Assembly: GCF_000243075.1 (NCBI RefSeq)
Contig: NC_016745.1
Coordinates: 2,931,001-2,995,000 of the forward strand
Direction of reading: 5' to 3'
DNA from: Oceanimonas sp. GK1
Lineage (GTDB): Bacteria > Pseudomonadota > Gammaproteobacteria > Enterobacterales > Aeromonadaceae
Length of the DNA: 64,000 bases
Shown here: in pieces, positions 56,733 to 64,000 of the stretch
Layout of the letters: each line of letters begins with the position of its first letter
Position numbering within the stretch: the first letter of the stretch is position 1
Program-made: the position numbers and the translations under genes
The notes under the pieces: generated by a model
Database searches by the model: none
Seen by the model: the letters and a program-made list of their open reading frames with translations, nothing else
What the model was told of the DNA's origin: nothing

Positions 56733-57362
56733 TTATTTGTTGATCAGGTAATCCCTGTCATAAAAGGTGCACACCCACTGGGGCCGGAACACCACCAGCA
56801 GAGTAATGGCCATGCCGTTGAGCAGGGCTTCGGGAAACAACAGCAGCGGCAGTATGCTGAGATAGTCGTTCTGCACCATGGGCCAGCCGTATTGTCCCGA
56901 CCATACCATGTAGCCGGCCATGGCCAGACTTTTGGCGGCCATGGTCAGGGCGGCGTTGAAAAAACCGGCCACGAAGATATACACAAACAGGTGCCGGTAC
57001 AGGTAACTGTAGGTCAACAGGAACACAAAATAGCTGACCGCAATGGGCAGCATCACTCCCAGCACCAGGTTAACGCCGAATTCGGACCAGGGCTCAACAC
57101 CAAAGGCGGTCACCAGCGCCAGCGCCAGCAGGGCCATCAGCTGACTCAAGCGCCAGCCCAGCATCAGCGCCAGGGTGGTCAGCCCCAAAAAGTGCACCTC
57201 TAGGCCGTCGCGAATGCCCGCCTGCAGCATCCACAAGGGCACCAGCGCAATGGCCGCGCCAAAACACAGGTGCTGGCGCCTTTTGTCCGCCAGCAGGGCG
57301 CGCCAGTCCACTTGCCAGGCGATAAGCACCATTGCTACCGCCCCCAACAGCCACATCATCAT
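56733..57362 (-). CDS. orphan energy-coupling-factor permease (CbiM-like)
   Basis: A 209-residue membrane protein with about six helices. GLEVHFLGLTTLALMLGWRLSQL and the later FFNAALTMAAKSLA and FPEALLNGMAITLLVVFRP fit the CbiM/ECF S-component-like permease family annotated in Vibrio relatives. No ECF ATPase or T component is adjacent and the usual CbiM N-terminal metal motif (MHI) is not seen, so the substrate is unknown. The start at 57362 is preferred over one 13 codons upstream with a hydrophilic extension. Confidence 0.68.
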   Translation of the reverse strand: MMMWLLGAVAMVLIAWQVDWRALLADKRRQHLCFGAAIALVPLWMLQAGIRDGLEVHFLGLTTLALMLGWRLSQLMALLALALVTAFGVEPWSEFGVNLVLGVMLPIAVSYFVFLLTYSYLYRHLFVYIFVAGFFNAALTMAAKSLAMAGYMVWSGQYGWPMVQNDYLSILPLLLFPEALLNGMAITLLVVFRPQWVCTFYDRDYLINK

Positions 57363-57565
57363 TGCCCGTTCCCGTTTATTCGCTTGTTGCCAGATTATCA
57401 CAGCAGCAAACGGGGGCCGAATACCACCGATACCGGCAGAGGCGATTCTGAATCACCGGAACATATCCCCACCCACATTCTGAAAACCCGGAAAAAGACC
57501 AACATCACCGCCGCATGACCCATTAATAATCAAACACTTACAAAATAAAACAGTCATGCAACCTT

Positions 57566-57581
57566 TGGCATCAAACCTGCA
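57566..57581 (+). promoter_or_regulatory. sigma-54-type promoter of the TAXI-TRAP operon
   Basis: TGGCATCAAACCTGCA has GG and GC at the required spacing and three differences from the consensus. It lies 41 bases before the TAXI gene. The operon encodes a sigma-54 activator, which supports the call. Confidence 0.6.
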
Positions 57582-57621
57582 ACACTGACAGCGCAAACCC
57601 ATAACCAAGGACTGTGAATCA

Positions 57622-58569
57622 ATGAAGATAATCAAACACTGCCTGCTCGGTGCCTCCCTGGCCCTGTCCGCCACCACCACCCAGGCCGCCGAGTTCATCA
57701 ACGTGCTCACTGGCGGCACCAGCGGCGTCTACTACCCGCTCGGCGTGGCCATCTCCCAGCTTTACGGCGAACACATTCCCGACGCCAAGGTACAGGTGCA
57801 GGCCACCCGGGCCTCGGTGGAAAACCTGACCCTGCTCGACCGGGGACGGGGCGAGGTAGGTTTCGCCCTGGCCGACAGCGTGGCCGACGCCTGGAACGGC
57901 GAAGCGGAAGCCGGCTTCAAGACGCCGCTGAAAAAGCTGCGGGCGGTGGGGGCCACCTACTCCAACTACATTCAGATCGTGGCCCGGGCCGACAGCGGCA
58001 TTACCAGCCTGGAGGATCTGAAAGGCAAGCGCATCTCGGTCGGCGCTCCCCGCTCCGGTACCGAGCTCAACGCCCGCGCCATCTTCAAGGCCGCCGGCCT
58101 CGGCTACGACGACTTCTCCCGTACCGAATACCTGCCCTTTGGCGAGTCGGTGGAGCTGATGAAAAACCGCCAGCTGGACGCCACCCTGCAGTCCGCCGGC
58201 CTCGGCATGGCCGCGTTCCGCGATCTCGCCTCCCACGCTCCGGTGGTGTTCATCCCCATTCCCGAAACGCTGGTGGCCAGCATCGGCAACGACGCCTACC
58301 GCCCCGGGGTGATCCCCGCCGGCACCTACACCGGCCAGGACGAGGACGTGCCCACCGTGGCCATCAGCAACCTGCTGATCACCCATAACAAAGTCTCGGA
58401 CGATACCGCCTATCAGATGGCAAAGCAGGTTTATGAAAACCTGCCGGCCCTGCGCAATGCCCACAACGCCGCCCATGGCATTGATCCGGAGCTGGCGGTG
58501 GATGGTCTGCCCCTGCCGCTGCATTCAGGGGCCGAGCGTTACTTCAGGGAAAAAGGCTTGATGGAGTAA
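57622..58569 (+). CDS. TAXI-type TRAP transporter solute-binding protein
   Basis: Periplasmic receptor of a tripartite transporter, 315 residues. It has a signal peptide (HCLLGASLALSATTTQA) and TAXI-family features: FINVLTGGTSGVYYPLGVAISQLY at the start, the sequence RASVENLTLLDRGRGEVGFALAD, and LKGKRISVGAPRSGTELNAR. TAXI proteins bind small organic acids such as glutamate or 2-oxoglutarate in the known cases. It begins the TRAP-DUF1850-kinase-regulator operon, with 96 bases to the permease gene. Confidence 0.93.
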   Translation: MKIIKHCLLGASLALSATTTQAAEFINVLTGGTSGVYYPLGVAISQLYGEHIPDAKVQVQATRASVENLTLLDRGRGEVGFALADSVADAWNGEAEAGFKTPLKKLRAVGATYSNYIQIVARADSGITSLEDLKGKRISVGAPRSGTELNARAIFKAAGLGYDDFSRTEYLPFGESVELMKNRQLDATLQSAGLGMAAFRDLASHAPVVFIPIPETLVASIGNDAYRPGVIPAGTYTGQDEDVPTVAISNLLITHNKVSDDTAYQMAKQVYENLPALRNAHNAAHGIDPELAVDGLPLPLHSGAERYFREKGLME

Positions 58570-58665
58570 CCCGACAACGCCGTCTTCGCGGCGGCGTTCC
58601 CCTCGACCCCTATGACGATAACAACAGCCTGGCCGTCCGGCGGACGGCACAGGCGGAGAGAAAAA

Positions 58666-60681
58666 ATGAGCAGTCATCAGACCCGGCATCACGCGCTGAT
58701 TTTTTATGGCGCCCTGTGTTTTTCCATCTTTCAAATCATCACCGCCGCCTTCAGCCCGTTGTCCACCACCGTGGTGCGGGCCGTGCACGTCGGCTTCCTG
58801 CTGTTCCTGGTGTACCAGTTGTACGGTGCCCGGGGCCAGCCCCTGTCCCGCCCCTCGGTGTGGGGCATGCTGCTGGGCGCCCTCGCCCTGTTGTTCGCCT
58901 TCTACCACTGGTGGTTCGAGGCGGATCTCATTTATCGCGCCGGCGACATGAACCAGGCCGACTGGGTCATCGGCAGCGTGACCCTGCTGATGGTGTTCGA
59001 CGCCGCCCGCCGGCTGATGGGCTGGGCGCTGCCACTGATCTGCCTGGCCTTCGTGGGCTACGCTCTGTTCGGCCAGCACCTGCCCGAGGCGCTGATGCAC
59101 CGAGGCTACGGCCTGGATCAGGTGGTGTCCCAGCTGGCCTTCAGCACCGAGGGCATCTACGGCACCCCCACCTATGTGTCGTCCAGCTACATCTTCCTGT
59201 TTATTTTGTTCGGCGCCTTCCTGGAACAGGCGGGCATGCTCAAGCTGTTCAACGACGTGGCCATCGGCTCGGTGGGCCACACCCGCGGCGGCCCGGCCAA
59301 GGTGTCGGTGCTGTCCTCCGGCATGATGGGCACCATCAACGGCTCCGGCGTGGCCAACGTAGTCAGCACCGGCCAGTTCACCATACCGCTGATGAAGAAG
59401 TTCGGTTACAAGGCCGACTTCGCCGGGGCGGTGGAAGCCACCAGCTCCATGGGCGGCCAGATCATGCCGCCGGTGATGGGCGCCGTGGCCTTTATCATGG
59501 CCGAAACCATCAACGTGCCCTACGTGGAAATCACCAAAGCCGCGCTGATCCCCGCCGTGCTCTACTTCTTCACCGTGTTCCTGATGGTGCACCTGGAAGC
59601 GGGCCGCGCCGGCCTCAACGGCCTGCCCAAGGCCGAGTGCCCCAACCCGGTGAAGGCCCTGAAGGAGCGCTGGTACCTGCTGCTGCCGCTGGTGGCGCTG
59701 GTGGTAATGCTGTTCTCCGGCTTCACCCCGCTGTTCGCCGGCATGATGGGCCTGACGCTCACCGTGGTGCTGATCATGGGCAACGGCATTGCCCGGCATC
59801 TGGGCGCCAGGGGGCTACGCTACGCCTTCTGGATTGGCCTGGGCCTGGCCTGCGCTAGCTTTAACCACTTCGGCATCACCGCCATCTTCGTGGTGGTGGC
59901 GGTGCTCGCCGTGCTGTTGCTGGTCAAACGCGAGCAGGGCATTCTGTCCACCGTGGTCAACGCCCTTTACCAGGGCTCCCTGCACGCCCTGCCGGTGGGC
60001 GTGGCCTGCGCCCTGGTGGGGGTGATCATCGGGGTCATCTCGCTCACCGGCGCCGCCACCATTGTCGCCGGCTACATCATTCAGCTGGGCGAGCACAGCC
60101 TGCTGCTGTCCCTGGCGCTGACCATGCTCACCTGCCTGGTGCTGGGCATGGGCATTCCCACCATTCCCAACTACATCATTACCAGCTCCATCGCCGCCCC
60201 GGCGCTGCTGGAGCTAGGGGTGCCGCTGATCGTGTCGCACATGTTCGTGTTCTACTTCGGCATCATGGCGGATCTGACCCCGCCGGTGGCCTTGGCCGCC
60301 TTCGCCGCCTCGCCCATCGCCAAGGCCTCGGGGCTGCGCATCGGCCTTCGCTCGCTGCAGATCGCCATCGCCGGCTTCGTGGTGCCCTACATGGCGGTAT
60401 ACGCCCCCGAGCTGATGCTGCAGGGCGACGCCGATCTTGCCGCCACCGTCTTCGTGGTGTTCAAGGCGCTGCTGGCGGTGTCGCTGTGGGGCATGGGCGC
60501 CATCGGCTACTGGCTGAGCCCCTTCGCCTGGTGGGAGCGGCTGAGTGCCGTGGTGGCCGCCGCCCTGCTGGTGTTCTCGCTGCCGATGACCGATGAGCTG
60601 GGGCTGGGCCTGGCCGCCCTGCTGCTGGGACGCCACTGGTGGCAAAGCCGACGCCGCGCCCCCGTGGCGGTCACCGGGTGA
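58666..60681 (+). CDS. TRAP transporter fused permease (4TM/12TM, TAXI type)
   Basis: Na+- or H+-coupled membrane component with small and large subunits fused, 671 residues and about sixteen helices. The DctM-like domain includes GMMGTINGSGVANVVSTGQFTIPLMKK, SSMGGQIMPPVMGAVAFIMAE and GMGIPTIPNYIITSS. The start at 58666 (GGAGAGAAAAA upstream) is preferred over one 18 codons earlier. Its stop codon overlaps the GTG start of the DUF1850 gene. Confidence 0.94.
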   Translation: MSSHQTRHHALIFYGALCFSIFQIITAAFSPLSTTVVRAVHVGFLLFLVYQLYGARGQPLSRPSVWGMLLGALALLFAFYHWWFEADLIYRAGDMNQADWVIGSVTLLMVFDAARRLMGWALPLICLAFVGYALFGQHLPEALMHRGYGLDQVVSQLAFSTEGIYGTPTYVSSSYIFLFILFGAFLEQAGMLKLFNDVAIGSVGHTRGGPAKVSVLSSGMMGTINGSGVANVVSTGQFTIPLMKKFGYKADFAGAVEATSSMGGQIMPPVMGAVAFIMAETINVPYVEITKAALIPAVLYFFTVFLMVHLEAGRAGLNGLPKAECPNPVKALKERWYLLLPLVALVVMLFSGFTPLFAGMMGLTLTVVLIMGNGIARHLGARGLRYAFWIGLGLACASFNHFGITAIFVVVAVLAVLLLVKREQGILSTVVNALYQGSLHALPVGVACALVGVIIGVISLTGAATIVAGYIIQLGEHSLLLSLALTMLTCLVLGMGIPTIPNYIITSSIAAPALLELGVPLIVSHMFVFYFGIMADLTPPVALAAFAASPIAKASGLRIGLRSLQIAIAGFVVPYMAVYAPELMLQGDADLAATVFVVFKALLAVSLWGMGAIGYWLSPFAWWERLSAVVAAALLVFSLPMTDELGLGLAALLLGRHWWQSRRRAPVAVTG

Positions 60682-61061
60682 TCTGCCTGTTTTCCGCTGC
60701 CACCACCGTGATGCTGCTGACCGGCAGCATCACCCTGAGCTGGCAGCACTCGGTGGAAAAGACGCGCTGGGAAGAGCAATATCGGGCCGAAGGGCCATCG
60801 CTGCGCCTGGTCCGGGCCAGTGTGCAGGGATCGGGCGCGGGCATGGAGCCCCCGCCCGAGGCCAGGCTTCTCCACGGCCGCTGGCACTGGCAGCCGAACC
60901 TGCGGTTGCCGCAGGTTACCCTTGCGGGCTCGGGGTTTACTGGCGAATATACCCTCTGCTTTTCATCGGGTCGGTGCCATCCGCTCAGCCACTGGCTGCC
61001 AGCCGGCCATGCCGTCACCCTCGCCAGCTGTGAATCGGAGGCCAACTGGAGCCATTATTGA
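60678..61061 (+). CDS. DUF1850 protein
   Basis: A 127-residue protein with an N-terminal signal or anchor helix (FSAATTVMLLTGSITLSW) and the conserved C-terminal YTLCFSSGRCHPLSHWLP motif with two cysteines. DUF1850 genes regularly sit next to TAXI-TRAP permeases, suggesting an accessory role in transport. The GTG at 60678 overlaps the permease stop (GTGA), and its own stop overlaps the kinase start (TTGA), so the three are translationally coupled. Confidence 0.8.
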   Translation: MICLFSAATTVMLLTGSITLSWQHSVEKTRWEEQYRAEGPSLRLVRASVQGSGAGMEPPPEARLLHGRWHWQPNLRLPQVTLAGSGFTGEYTLCFSSGRCHPLSHWLPAGHAVTLASCESEANWSHY

Positions 61062-62815
61062 AAAAACGCCTGCTCAAGCTGTGTTTATTACTGCTGTTTG
61101 CCCTGTTGCTGTTGCTGGTGTGGCGCGGCAGCTGGCAGCATCAGGCCCGGGAGCAGGAAATACGCGCCCAGCAGCAGTTGCAAATCTACCGGGCCGCGCT
61201 GGAGTCGGAAATTGCCCGCTTTGAGAACATTCCCCGCGCGCTGCAATCCCACCCGCTGCTGACCCGCGCCCTGCAACAGCCGGCGCTTGCCACCACCATC
61301 GACGGCGCCAACCGGCTGCTGCAGCAGCTGGCCGAGGATACCGGGGTGGAAGCGCTCTACCTGATCGATGCCAACGGCGACACCCTGGCCGCCAGCAACT
61401 GGCATCTTCCCCACAGCTTCGTGGGGCAGAACTATCGCTTTCGTCCCTATGTGACCGATGCCCTCAAGGGCAGTTTCGGCGAATTTTATGCCGTGGGAGC
61501 GACCACCCGCATTCCCGGCTATTTTTTCGGGCTGCACATGACAGCGCCGGACGGCACCAAAGGCGTGCTGGCGGCAAAAATCACCCTGCTGGAGCTGGAG
61601 CGAAGCTGGCAACCGTCCCGGGATCTGGTGCTGGTGGTGGATCCGGATCAGGTGATTGCCCTCGCCTCCCGGGCCGGGCTCAAGTTCAAAACCCTGACGC
61701 CGCTGAGTGCGGCGGCACGCCAGCGCCTGGACAATGCCCGCCAGTACACCCCCATGCCGCTGGCCCCCCTGGCGACCGCCCCCGATGAACAACACATTGA
61801 ATGGCAGGGGGAGCCCTACGGCATCAGCGAGCTGGCGCTGCCCCGGCTGCAATGGCGCATGCAGTTATGGTGGCCCAGCCGGCAACTGGCGATCAATGCC
61901 AGCCTGCTGACCGCCCTCACCGGTGTTGGTGTGATTGCGCTGTTGCTGCTGCTGCTGTACTGGCGCCAGCGCCGGCGCTACCATCGCATGCAACGCCGGG
62001 CCCGCAGCGAGCTGGAACAGCAGGTGATGTCGCGCACCGCCGCCCTGGCGGCGGCCAACCACCAGCTGGAGCAACAGATCCAGGAACGCATTCAGGCCGA
62101 GGCCAGGCTCAGATCCATGCAGCACGAGCTGATCCAGACCAACCGGCTGGCGGCCCTCGGGCAGATGGCCGCCGGCGTGGCCCACGAAGTGAACCAGCCC
62201 CTGACCGCCCTGCGCAACCAGTCGGTCAACACCCTGCTGCTGACCCAGCGAGGTCGATTCGACGAGGTGCAGACCAGCCTGCAGACCATGGGGCGGCTGA
62301 TTGATCGCATTGCCAGGCTGACCTCCCAGCTCAAGTTGTTTGCCGCCACCCGCCGCAGTACCAAGGGTCACGCCCGCCTGGAGGAAGCATTGGCCAATGT
62401 GCTGAGCTGGCTGGCTCCACGCCTGGCCGAGCAGCATATTCACCTGGAGGTGCCGGCGGACAAGACCCTGTCACTGCCCATGGCGCTGCACGCCCTGGAG
62501 CAGGTGCTGGCCAACCTGCTGACCAACAGCATCGACGCCCTGGCCGGCACCACTCCCGCCTGCATCACCCTGACCGCCGGGCCGGACTGGCTGCAATGGC
62601 AGGACAATGGCCCCGGCATCGCCCCCGAGCTGGTCGACAAGCTCACCGAGCCGTTTTTTTCCACCAAGCAGGCCGGCCAGGGCCTGGGCCTTGGCCTGTC
62701 TATCGTCCGGGATCTGGTGGAAGCCAGCGATGGCCGGCTGGACATTCAGTGCCCGCTCACCGGCGGGATCCGATTCCGAATTGACTGGAGCCCTCATGAA
62801 CCCGACCCCCATTGA
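61058..62815 (+). CDS. sensor histidine kinase, DctB-like
   Basis: A 585-residue membrane kinase. TM1 is about 5-22. A periplasmic double PDC/dCache sensor (about 35-275) carries GQNYRFRPYVTDALKGSFGEFYAVGATTRIPGYFFG, closely resembling the carboxylate-binding part of DctB. TM2 is about 282-302, then a coiled coil. The H-box AAGVAHEVNQPL has H376, and ATPase boxes NLLTNSIDAL, DNGPGI and GQGLGLGLSIV follow. It starts with TTG overlapping the DUF1850 stop. It probably senses the transporter's substrate or a related carboxylate. Confidence 0.92.
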   Translation: MKKRLLKLCLLLLFALLLLLVWRGSWQHQAREQEIRAQQQLQIYRAALESEIARFENIPRALQSHPLLTRALQQPALATTIDGANRLLQQLAEDTGVEALYLIDANGDTLAASNWHLPHSFVGQNYRFRPYVTDALKGSFGEFYAVGATTRIPGYFFGLHMTAPDGTKGVLAAKITLLELERSWQPSRDLVLVVDPDQVIALASRAGLKFKTLTPLSAAARQRLDNARQYTPMPLAPLATAPDEQHIEWQGEPYGISELALPRLQWRMQLWWPSRQLAINASLLTALTGVGVIALLLLLLYWRQRRRYHRMQRRARSELEQQVMSRTAALAAANHQLEQQIQERIQAEARLRSMQHELIQTNRLAALGQMAAGVAHEVNQPLTALRNQSVNTLLLTQRGRFDEVQTSLQTMGRLIDRIARLTSQLKLFAATRRSTKGHARLEEALANVLSWLAPRLAEQHIHLEVPADKTLSLPMALHALEQVLANLLTNSIDALAGTTPACITLTAGPDWLQWQDNGPGIAPELVDKLTEPFFSTKQAGQGLGLGLSIVRDLVEASDGRLDIQCPLTGGIRFRIDWSPHEPDPH

Positions 62816-64000
62816 AGTCTGGCTGGTAGAAGACGACGAGGATGTCCGCCAGACCCTGCTGCAAACCCTGCAACTGTCCGATATTTCTGCCCGGGGCTTT
62901 GCCCGGGCCGAGCAGGCGCTGCAGGCCCTGCCGGCAGAGGCCCCGGTGGTGATCCTGTCCGACGTGCGCATGCCGGGCATGGACGGCCTGGCCCTGCTGC
63001 AACAACTGCAGGGTCGCGATGCCGAGCTGCCGGTGCTGCTGCTGACCGGCCATGGCGACATTCCCATGGCGGTGGAAGCCATGCGCCTGGGCGCCCAGGA
63101 TTTCTTTGAAAAGCCCTATCAGCCCGAGCAGTTGCTGCACAGCCTGCGCCGAGCCATGGACAGGCGCGCCCTGGTGCTGGAAAACCGCCGCCTGCGCGAA
63201 CAACTGGCGGCGCGCCGGGATCCCGGCCTGCTGCTCGGCCACAGCCCGCAAATCGAGCTGCTGCGCCGGCAGATCGACAACGTCGCCGACACCAGCGCCA
63301 GTGTGCTGATCCTGGGAGAAACCGGCACCGGCAAGGAGCTGGTGGCGCGCAGTCTGCATCAGGGCAGCGGTCGCAAGGGCCACTTTGTGGCGATCAACTG
63401 CACCGCCCTGCCCGAGTCTATCTTTGAAAGCGAAATGTTCGGCGCCGAGCCCGGCGCCTTTACCGGGGTCACCAAACGCCGTATCGGCAAGATAGAGCAC
63501 GCCGACAACGGCACCCTGTTTCTCGACGAAATAGAAGGCATGCCCCTCAACCTGCAGGCCAAGCTGCTGAGGGTCTTGCAGGAGTCGGTGCTGGAGCGCC
63601 TGGGCGGCAACAAACTCATCGAGGTGGATGCCCGGGTGGTGGCCGCCACCAAGATCGATCTGCAGAGCGCCGGCGAGGCCGGACTGTTTCGCCCGGATCT
63701 CTATTTCCGGCTGAACGTGGTCACCCTCAGCCTGCCCCCGTTACGGGAGCGGCGGGCGGATATTCCGCTGCTGTTTCTGCACTTCGTGGAGCAGGCCCGC
63801 GCCCAGTACAACCGGGACGCCGCGCCGCCGTCCGACGCATTGCTGCAACAACTGCTCCGCCGGGACTGGCCGGGCAATGTACGTGAACTGCGCCACGCCG
63901 CCGAACAGTATGTGCTGGGGGTGCTGGCGGTGGCGACTCAGGCGGCGCCGTTGTCCCTGCCCGGCCAGCTCGCCGCTCTTGAGCAACAGTTGATCCTGGA
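62796..64000 (+). CDS. sigma-54-dependent response regulator, DctD-like (3' end outside window)
   Basis: An NtrC-family activator whose first 401 codons are present. The receiver domain has the phosphoacceptor D56 (LSDVRMPGMDG), T84 and K106. The AAA+ domain has Walker A GETGTGKE (174-181), the sigma-54-contact loop and Walker B TLFLDEIE (240-247), then RRDWPGNVRELRHAAEQ. The contact loop reads GAFTGV (220-225) rather than the usual GAFTGA. The missing 40-50 residues would hold the Fis-type DNA-binding helix. It overlaps the kinase gene by 20 bases. Confidence 0.93.
   Translation, partial: MNPTPIEVWLVEDDEDVRQTLLQTLQLSDISARGFARAEQALQALPAEAPVVILSDVRMPGMDGLALLQQLQGRDAELPVLLLTGHGDIPMAVEAMRLGAQDFFEKPYQPEQLLHSLRRAMDRRALVLENRRLREQLAARRDPGLLLGHSPQIELLRRQIDNVADTSASVLILGETGTGKELVARSLHQGSGRKGHFVAINCTALPESIFESEMFGAEPGAFTGVTKRRIGKIEHADNGTLFLDEIEGMPLNLQAKLLRVLQESVLERLGGNKLIEVDARVVAATKIDLQSAGEAGLFRPDLYFRLNVVTLSLPPLRERRADIPLLFLHFVEQARAQYNRDAAPPSDALLQQLLRRDWPGNVRELRHAAEQYVLGVLAVATQAAPLSLPGQLAALEQQLIL

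Follow-up and report, generated by a model that had tools for sequence, protein, structure and literature searches.

A TAXI-type TRAP operon of Oceanimonas sp. GK1 with its own DctB/DctD-type regulatory pair: a probable self-regulated importer of alpha-ketoglutarate or another C5-dicarboxylate

Background

DctB-DctD is the classical two-component pair that places a dicarboxylate carrier, DctA or DctPQM, under sigma54 control. Here we describe a related arrangement in a stretch of 64,000 nucleotides from Oceanimonas sp. GK1 (contig NC_016745.1, positions 2,931,001 to 2,995,000 of the forward strand; "the window" below means this whole stretch), where five genes on one strand encode a TAXI-family TRAP receptor, a fused TRAP permease, a DUF1850 protein, a DctB-type histidine kinase and an NtrC-type response regulator. 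The kinase and the regulator share the architecture of DctB and DctD, but the receptor belongs to the TAXI and not to the DctP type, and the sensor loop of the kinase and the clade of the regulator differ as well. We predict that this is a self-controlled uptake operon, probably for a C5-dicarboxylate such as alpha-ketoglutarate.

Pairs of the same general type are known to serve other importers. In Pseudomonas, MifSR and RpoN are needed for the use of alpha-ketoglutarate, for which MifSR is specific, and act through PA5530 (KgtP), a protein with the PRK10406 domain (PMC4482717). The likeness to the window comprises a DctB-type kinase with V or A in the sensor loop (seen in KgtP-linked kinases), an NtrC-type regulator and RpoN-dependent control of an alpha-ketoglutarate importer, as we propose for the window; however, KgtP is a single MFS permease and not a TAXI TRAP transporter, and the window's regulator lies outside the KgtP-linked clade. 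AauS-AauR (PMC8694187, PMC7962211) is likewise a DctB/D-type pair controlling a carboxylate importer, but that importer, AatJQMP, is an ABC transporter for acidic amino acids, and the one AauS-type kinase that we examined has a polar loop residue. On the transporter side, VcGluPQM (PMC11574862) shares with the window the combination of a TAXI receptor and a fused permease. Unlike it, the window's permease has no DUF3394 claw (no match at 0.001) and is accompanied by DUF1850 instead, and two amino-group contacts of the receptor are replaced; moreover, the available text of PMC11574862 mentions neither 'two-component' nor 'histidine kinase', whereas the window has such a pair. What is new here is a proposed DctB/D-type control, known for the DctA, DctPQM, KgtP and Aat systems, exerted on a TAXI TRAP transporter.

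TAXI transporters are widespread and few have a known ligand; for the TAXI system of PMC11574862, according to the available text, genome context and phylogeny gave none. In the present case the regulator provides a clue and a short list of candidate acids, which applies to two separate proteins, the receptor and the kinase sensor, and this goes one step past the original prediction (made from the letters of the window without database searches) by giving an orphan importer a ligand that can be tested. If true, our reading would add a binding-protein-dependent route for the sensing and uptake of alpha-ketoglutarate, and would place DUF1850 in a context and offer a natural case on which to test the GAFTGA loop.

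The sigma54 site and its linkage to the regulatory pair

The original prediction placed a -24/-12 element before the first gene, and such an element, TGGCATCAAACCTGCA (57566..57581, + strand), is indeed found there, with GG and GC at ten-base spacing and a score of 13.1 in a hand-written weight matrix. As stand-alone evidence we rejected the site, which by itself is near chance (shuffle p 0.015; sites scoring at least 13 number 13 on both strands of the 64-kb window, TGGCATCAAACCTGCA included, or roughly 0.035 for every 340 bp of a single strand); it is its conservation in relatives that sets the site at 57566 above chance.

To the window's locus we added those of the 80 closest permease relatives listed, out of a larger number existing, with flanks of at most 7 kb and with some loci cut by contig ends (individual loci are given below by L numbers). 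A site was counted as present at a score of at least 12 ahead of the receptor. Among the 81 loci, 73 could be scored; the remaining eight (L021, L023, L032, L051, L054, L060, L077, L087) were left out because the receptor was cut off or missing, or because the motif or the frame was not parsed. The kinase-regulator pair lies downstream of the transporter in 12 of the 80 relatives and upstream in 15; the downstream arrangement is that of the window and of beta-proteobacteria and the upstream one that of Pseudomonas, and their regulators come from different branches. The site accompanies the pair in every linked locus (13/13 of the downstream type, window included, and 15/15 of the upstream type, hence 28/28) vs 7 of 45 loci without a pair in the fetched stretch, counts that are not independent trials because the loci are related. 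The same rule is common to two gene arrangements and many genera, and this comparison, strong where the single site is weak, argues for the proposed self-regulation through a sigma54 promoter. In five of the seven unlinked loci with a site (L037, L045, L058, L063, L070) the genome has an unlinked regulator that belongs to the clade of Pseudomonas TAXI regulators. In the genome of the sixth, L074, the regulators found were all more distant; one of them, L112, is included in our tree, and the search for unlinked regulators covered all of these genomes except that of the seventh, L025. A single genome, Azoarcus sp. L1K30, contains both states: its locus L056 is without a pair, without a detected DUF1850 and without a site (5.9), and at its second locus, L107, the five genes are complete and the site scores 17.2.

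Within the family of the window's host, 41 genomes were sampled, and DUF1850 was found in 8 of the 14 from the window's genus (its own included) and in none of the 27 from other genera. In all seven loci of the genus that we fetched, the order of the five genes is kept and the site is present at a similar place; two of them (L149 and L151) are probably repeats of L012 and L014. Thus the five-gene order, which the original prediction had suggested seeking in related genomes, occurs together with the site in 7/7 genus loci and also in Azoarcus (L107).

Upstream of the site there are two semi-palindromes of 16 bases that resemble regulator boxes, TTCTGAATCACCGGAA (57446..57461, + strand) and TTCTGAAAACCCGGAA (57478..57493, + strand). 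Their spacing is 32 bp, 72 bases separate the end of the second from the -24/-12 site, and they are the only two matches of their pattern on the + strand of the window. By the strict pattern, at least one box is present in 6/7 genus loci and two in 3/7. Similar boxes are seen by eye upstream of the site in L012-L015, and several beta-proteobacterial loci have palindromes of another sequence. We regard the boxes as candidate binding sites of the regulator. The top-scoring sigma54-like site of the window as a whole lies elsewhere (TGGCACCAATTTTGCA, at about 24008 on the - strand, score 17.8).

We propose the following mechanism. The kinase would sense the acid in the periplasm via its double-Cache domain and phosphorylate the regulator, which would bind the boxes at 57446 and 57478 and, together with sigma54 RNA polymerase, open the -24/-12 promoter at 57566. 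The five genes, presumably transcribed together as a single transcript, would then yield the receptor, the permease and the DUF1850 protein as well as more kinase and regulator, a positive loop by which high-affinity import would be built up when the acid is present.

The kinase sensor

The kinase (61058..62815, + strand; 585 aa, TTG start) contains HATPase_c (69.2 bits, cut-off 26.4) and HisKA (27.5, cut-off 26.9). The DctB-like sensor that had been predicted for it is confirmed by matches to the solved DctB sensors 3by9 (E 4e-28) and 3e4o (E 2e-25), which are its only sequence relatives among solved structures at E up to 0.001, even though the Pfam dCache model scores only 35.8, under its cut-off of 45. 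Both the Arg of FRPY and the Lys of the 'AK' strand are retained. The pocket loop, YAVGATTRIPG, which can be seen in the alignments to the DctB structures, is MifS-like, with V/A at a position that we take to be the equivalent of Thr171 of Sinorhizobium DctB. V or A occupies this position in 40/40 kinases that are TAXI-linked or of the TAXI clade (the window's, 13/13 others of the downstream type with L107 included, 14/14 of the upstream type, 5/5 unlinked ones of the TAXI clade, and 7/7 of the genus loci), although two are probably counted twice as repeats of L012 and L014. The same holds for 5/5 MifS-type kinases. Elsewhere the position is polar: N or T in four DctB-type kinases, S in one AauS-type kinase, and N in the paralogue L010 of the window's own genome.

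DctB, AauS and MifS have been grouped together as carboxylic-acid dCache sensors (PMC8694187), and KguS, with a periplasmic part 25% identical to DctB, answers to alpha-ketoglutarate (PMC3694859). A C4 ligand therefore does not follow from a DctB-like sensor. The loop of the window's kinase speaks for a MifS-like ligand without fixing it.

The regulator: branch and GAFTGV loop

The regulator gene (62796..64118, + strand; 440 aa) runs past the window's end at 64000, and its Response_reg (97.7 bits, cut-off 30.2) and Sigma54_activat (213, cut-off 20.2) domains were scored on the part inside the window; in addition to this receiver and sigma54 AAA+ module, a helix-turn-helix was recognised by visual inspection. 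From a selected set of 39 regulators we built a tree, some branches of which are long. Its groups received their names once a tree had been inspected, and the labels MifR-, DctD- and AauR-type come from gene neighbours and not from reference sequences. The regulators of the window's group form one clade (100/99) with those of Vogesella, Accumulibacter, Azoarcus and Thauera. A separate clade (95/93) comprises the Pseudomonas TAXI regulators and is sister (100/100) to the regulators whose neighbour is a KgtP-type permease. The DctD-type rows, three of the four with a DctM-like gene nearby, lie apart, as does the AauR-type row, whose neighbour is a GltK-like permease gene below the cut-off of that model, and the downstream-type regulators L064, L075 and L083 fall outside the window's clade. 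The predicted DctB/DctD-like pair thus stands as DctB/D-type in the wide sense; it is not DctBD proper, given the separate regulator clade and the MifS-like sensor loop.

A topology test did not reject a group made of the window's main clade, the Pseudomonas TAXI clade and the KgtP-linked regulators (p 0.138). One origin of all TAXI-linked pairs found no such tolerance: the main clade with the Pseudomonas TAXI clade and without KgtP-linked regulators was rejected at p about 1e-44, and so was a single group of all TAXI-linked and KgtP-linked regulators (p 0.003). The tree therefore implies that TAXI systems gained or exchanged pairs more than once, or that KgtP later took over a TAXI regulator; since the first of these groups was not rejected, KgtP may have acquired its regulator from a single ancient TAXI linkage.

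The loop at 63453-63470 of the window reads GAFTGV in place of the GAFTGA of sigma54 activators. V is present at the last position in 4/4 parsed regulators of the window's group, including L012 (GAYTGV), L014 and L015, and in 7/7 genus loci (L148-L154). The other 23 parsed TAXI-linked regulators have A (L013 was not parsed), and the nearest beta-proteobacterial relatives have GAYTGA.

KgtP and the receptor pocket as clues to the ligand

The gene that follows the MifR-type regulator of L157 scores 568 bits with the PRK10406 model, above its cut-off of 550, and a close homologue of this KgtP is present in 5/5 fetched loci of MifR-type regulators (L155-L159). We surveyed 36 genomes for a close KgtP (830 bits or more); the survey left out the genomes of L027, L043 and L044 (of the upstream type), L013, L016 and L017 (of the downstream type), L025 and L074. 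A close KgtP is encoded in all nine Pseudomonas TAXI genomes that have no site, beside a MifR-type regulator in all nine by coordinates, and in only one of 17 site-bearing genomes (12 of the 15 of the upstream type plus the five with unlinked regulators). None was found in the ten downstream-type genomes searched, and in the window's own genome, one of these ten, KgtP gave no match at 1e-60. The exception among the 17, the genome of L088, has two MifR-type regulators, one similar to the TAXI group (81%) and the other (65%) directly beside KgtP. The pattern suggested by these gene neighbourhoods is one regulator branch per transporter.

The receptor (57622..58569, + strand; 315 aa) matches TIGR02122 with 361.6 bits (cut-off 84.35) and PF16868 with 313.8 bits. 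We aligned it to 8s4j, which we take to be the structure of VcGluP, and to 1us4, its best-scoring solved relative. In VcGluP, Tyr45, Gln93 and Glu125 provide the side-chain contacts of the ligand's amino end (PMC11574862). The window's receptor keeps the tyrosine but carries Leu in place of Gln93 and Asn in place of Glu125, and the same Leu and Asn occur in 74 of 77 receptors, the other three not being parsed. The loss of two amino-group contacts argues against an amino acid ligand. According to the same paper, 1us4 is a glutamate/glutamine protein, VcGluP itself gives no response to alpha-ketoglutarate, and an alpha-ketoglutarate TAXI protein of Proteus mirabilis has been described (Roden 2023, as cited in PMC11574862).

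The window's own genome encodes two further TAXI systems. L010 (G000:C1:42000-58000) has the order kinase-regulator-permease-receptor, a DctB-like loop and a regulator with GAFTDA. L011 (G000:C1:2416000-2432000) is VcGluPQM-like, its 865-residue frame carries DUF3394, and no kinase-regulator pair like that of the window was matched in the fetched 16 kb. In this genome DUF3394 was found only at L011 and, below the cut-off, at L010.

Weighing the alternatives

That the operon controls itself and imports a C5-dicarboxylate, alpha-ketoglutarate most likely, is in our judgement a rather probable interpretation. The sense-and-import cassette of the original prediction is supported with it, and the carboxylate that had been left unnamed can now be guessed: alpha-ketoglutarate or another C5-dicarboxylate. 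A number of points weigh on the other side. The interpretation is drawn from sequence throughout. The regulator falls outside the KgtP-linked (MifR) clade, its common group with MifR-type regulators being simply not rejected (p 0.138), and it bears GAFTGV and not GAFTGA. In the genome of the site-bearing L074, the nearest pair found (L112) has N at the loop position. The KgtP contrast comes down to two changes of the site label and three of KgtP on the permease tree, and as a statistical test we rejected it, since it comprises only one or two independent pairs; 3/15 upstream-type and 3/13 downstream-type genomes, L025 and L074 are absent from it. Site-less Pseudomonas keep both KgtP and this TAXI system, so TAXI may do something else there. 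Six of the 14 sampled genomes of the window's genus gave no DUF1850 match, and the system is therefore dispensable.

The same self-regulated cassette could instead serve C4-dicarboxylates (succinate, fumarate, malate), as with classical DctBD, and the DctB sensors as the only solved relatives of the kinase sensor, together with the retained Arg and Lys, agree with this; however, the sensor loop and the regulator clade are unlike those of the DctB/DctD-type pairs examined, and the genome has another, DctB-like pair in L010, and we consider C4 ligands unlikely. Glutamate or another acidic amino acid, as in VcGluPQM or the Cereibacter TAXI system, seems to us somewhat more doubtful: three characterised TAXI systems (VcGluP, BP0403 and Rsp_1412-1413) use glutamate (PMC11574862, PMC12344293, PMC12632250) and the receptor's best-scoring solved relative is a glutamate/glutamine protein, but the replacement of Gln93 and Glu125 by Leu and Asn in nearly all receptors and the presence elsewhere in the genome of a VcGluP-like system (L011) that carries the DUF3394 claw speak against it. 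It is improbable that the pair is just a neighbour of the transporter, with the regulator mainly controlling other promoters and the site at 57566 not being its target. The near-chance score of the single site and the indirect case for autoregulation would suit such a view, which is opposed by the strict co-occurrence of site and pair (28/28 vs 7/45, with five of those seven having an unlinked clade member) and by the retention of the site in 7/7 and of a strict-pattern box in 6/7 genus loci. Least credible of all, we find, is a GAFTGV regulator that cannot open sigma54 complexes and acts as a repressor or in some other way. A similar change in NtrC uncouples ATP use from opening and blocks open-complex formation, and the V is uniform in the window's group and genus; the sigma54 site is nevertheless conserved in the same genomes, and the nearest beta-proteobacterial relatives have GAYTGA.

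Starting from the preferred alpha-ketoglutarate operon, a wider scenario can be drawn, which we put forward as a tentative and rather doubtful one. TAXI systems of the DUF1850 clade would be binding-protein-dependent alpha-ketoglutarate importers of many proteobacteria that gained DctB/D-type pairs, or exchanged them with KgtP, more than once, and that in many Pseudomonas replace KgtP, controlled by a MifR-family branch of their own. DUF1850 would act as a third subunit, without a signal and located on the cytoplasmic side, and the window's lineage would use a natural GAFTGV sigma54 activator.

DUF1850

The DUF1850 protein (60678..61061, + strand; 127 aa, GTG start) matches PF08905 with 81.2 bits (cut-off 27). 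A homologue lies beside the permease in 75 of the 80 relatives; no homologue was detected in L056, L061, L064, L090 or L050, the last being truncated at the end of its contig. Three cysteines are invariant in 58 aligned members (the window's and 57 of the 75). The predicted structure is all-beta, with a predicted local distance difference test (pLDDT) score of 89.4 and without an N-terminal helix, and a fold search of this model against the PDB gave a best E of 0.09 and nothing at 0.001. Five distant DUF1850 proteins (L120, L131, L132, L134, L135), whose genes lie between those for the receptor and the permease, show on visual inspection a membrane anchor or a signal peptide, which places the domain outside the cytoplasm there; six further distant members, unmatched by the profile, were left out of this inspection. 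The window-type protein seems to have no export signal and starts where the mature domain of the distant members begins. Both a cytoplasmic transporter subunit and an unusual export route are possible for it.

DUF1850 as a detached DUF3394 claw was considered and rejected (profile comparison probability 0.4%, and no PDB fold match of the model). In a class sample of 114 genomes the two domains never occur on the same permease, which carries little weight with DUF1850 present in only two of the 114. In the literature searched, which mostly excludes subscription journals, we found no paper on DUF1850, on TAXI and TRAP transporters with either DUF1850 or DctB, or on GAFTGA with NtrC and A220V.

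Operon layout

The permease (58666..60681, + strand) matches TIGR02123 with 725.5 bits (cut-off 320.65), and among the 80 closest matches listed its closest named relatives are from Oceanisphaera, Oceanimonas and Zobellella. With this and the scores given above, the identities of the five genes on one strand, as originally predicted, are borne out by profiles, and the predicted overlaps from the permease onward proved exact on re-reading: the permease stop (60679-60681) overlaps the GTG start of DUF1850 at 60678 (GTGA), the DUF1850 stop (61059-61061) overlaps the TTG start of the kinase at 61058 (TTGA), and 20 bases are common to the regulator, from its ATG at 62796, and the kinase, whose stop ends at 62815. 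A candidate regulator start lies within 20 bases of the kinase stop in 12 of the 13 downstream-pair loci (window included; none in L075).

An ATG at 58612 is also possible for the permease. The ATG at 58666 has a ribosome-binding-like sequence ahead of it and leaves a gap of 96 bases after the receptor, and we think it may be the true start. For the receptor-permease gap (58567-58665) two RNA hairpins are predicted, one of them (58576..58598, + strand) directly after the receptor stop; the whole gap folds with -39.2 kcal/mol (z -2.38), and 5 of 200 shuffles were equally stable. The hairpin after the receptor stop could keep the receptor level above that of the permease. Divergent from the operon lies a gene for a CbiM-like membrane protein (56733-57401, - strand), a homologue of which is also found upstream, on the other strand, in L012-L015 and in 7/7 genus loci.

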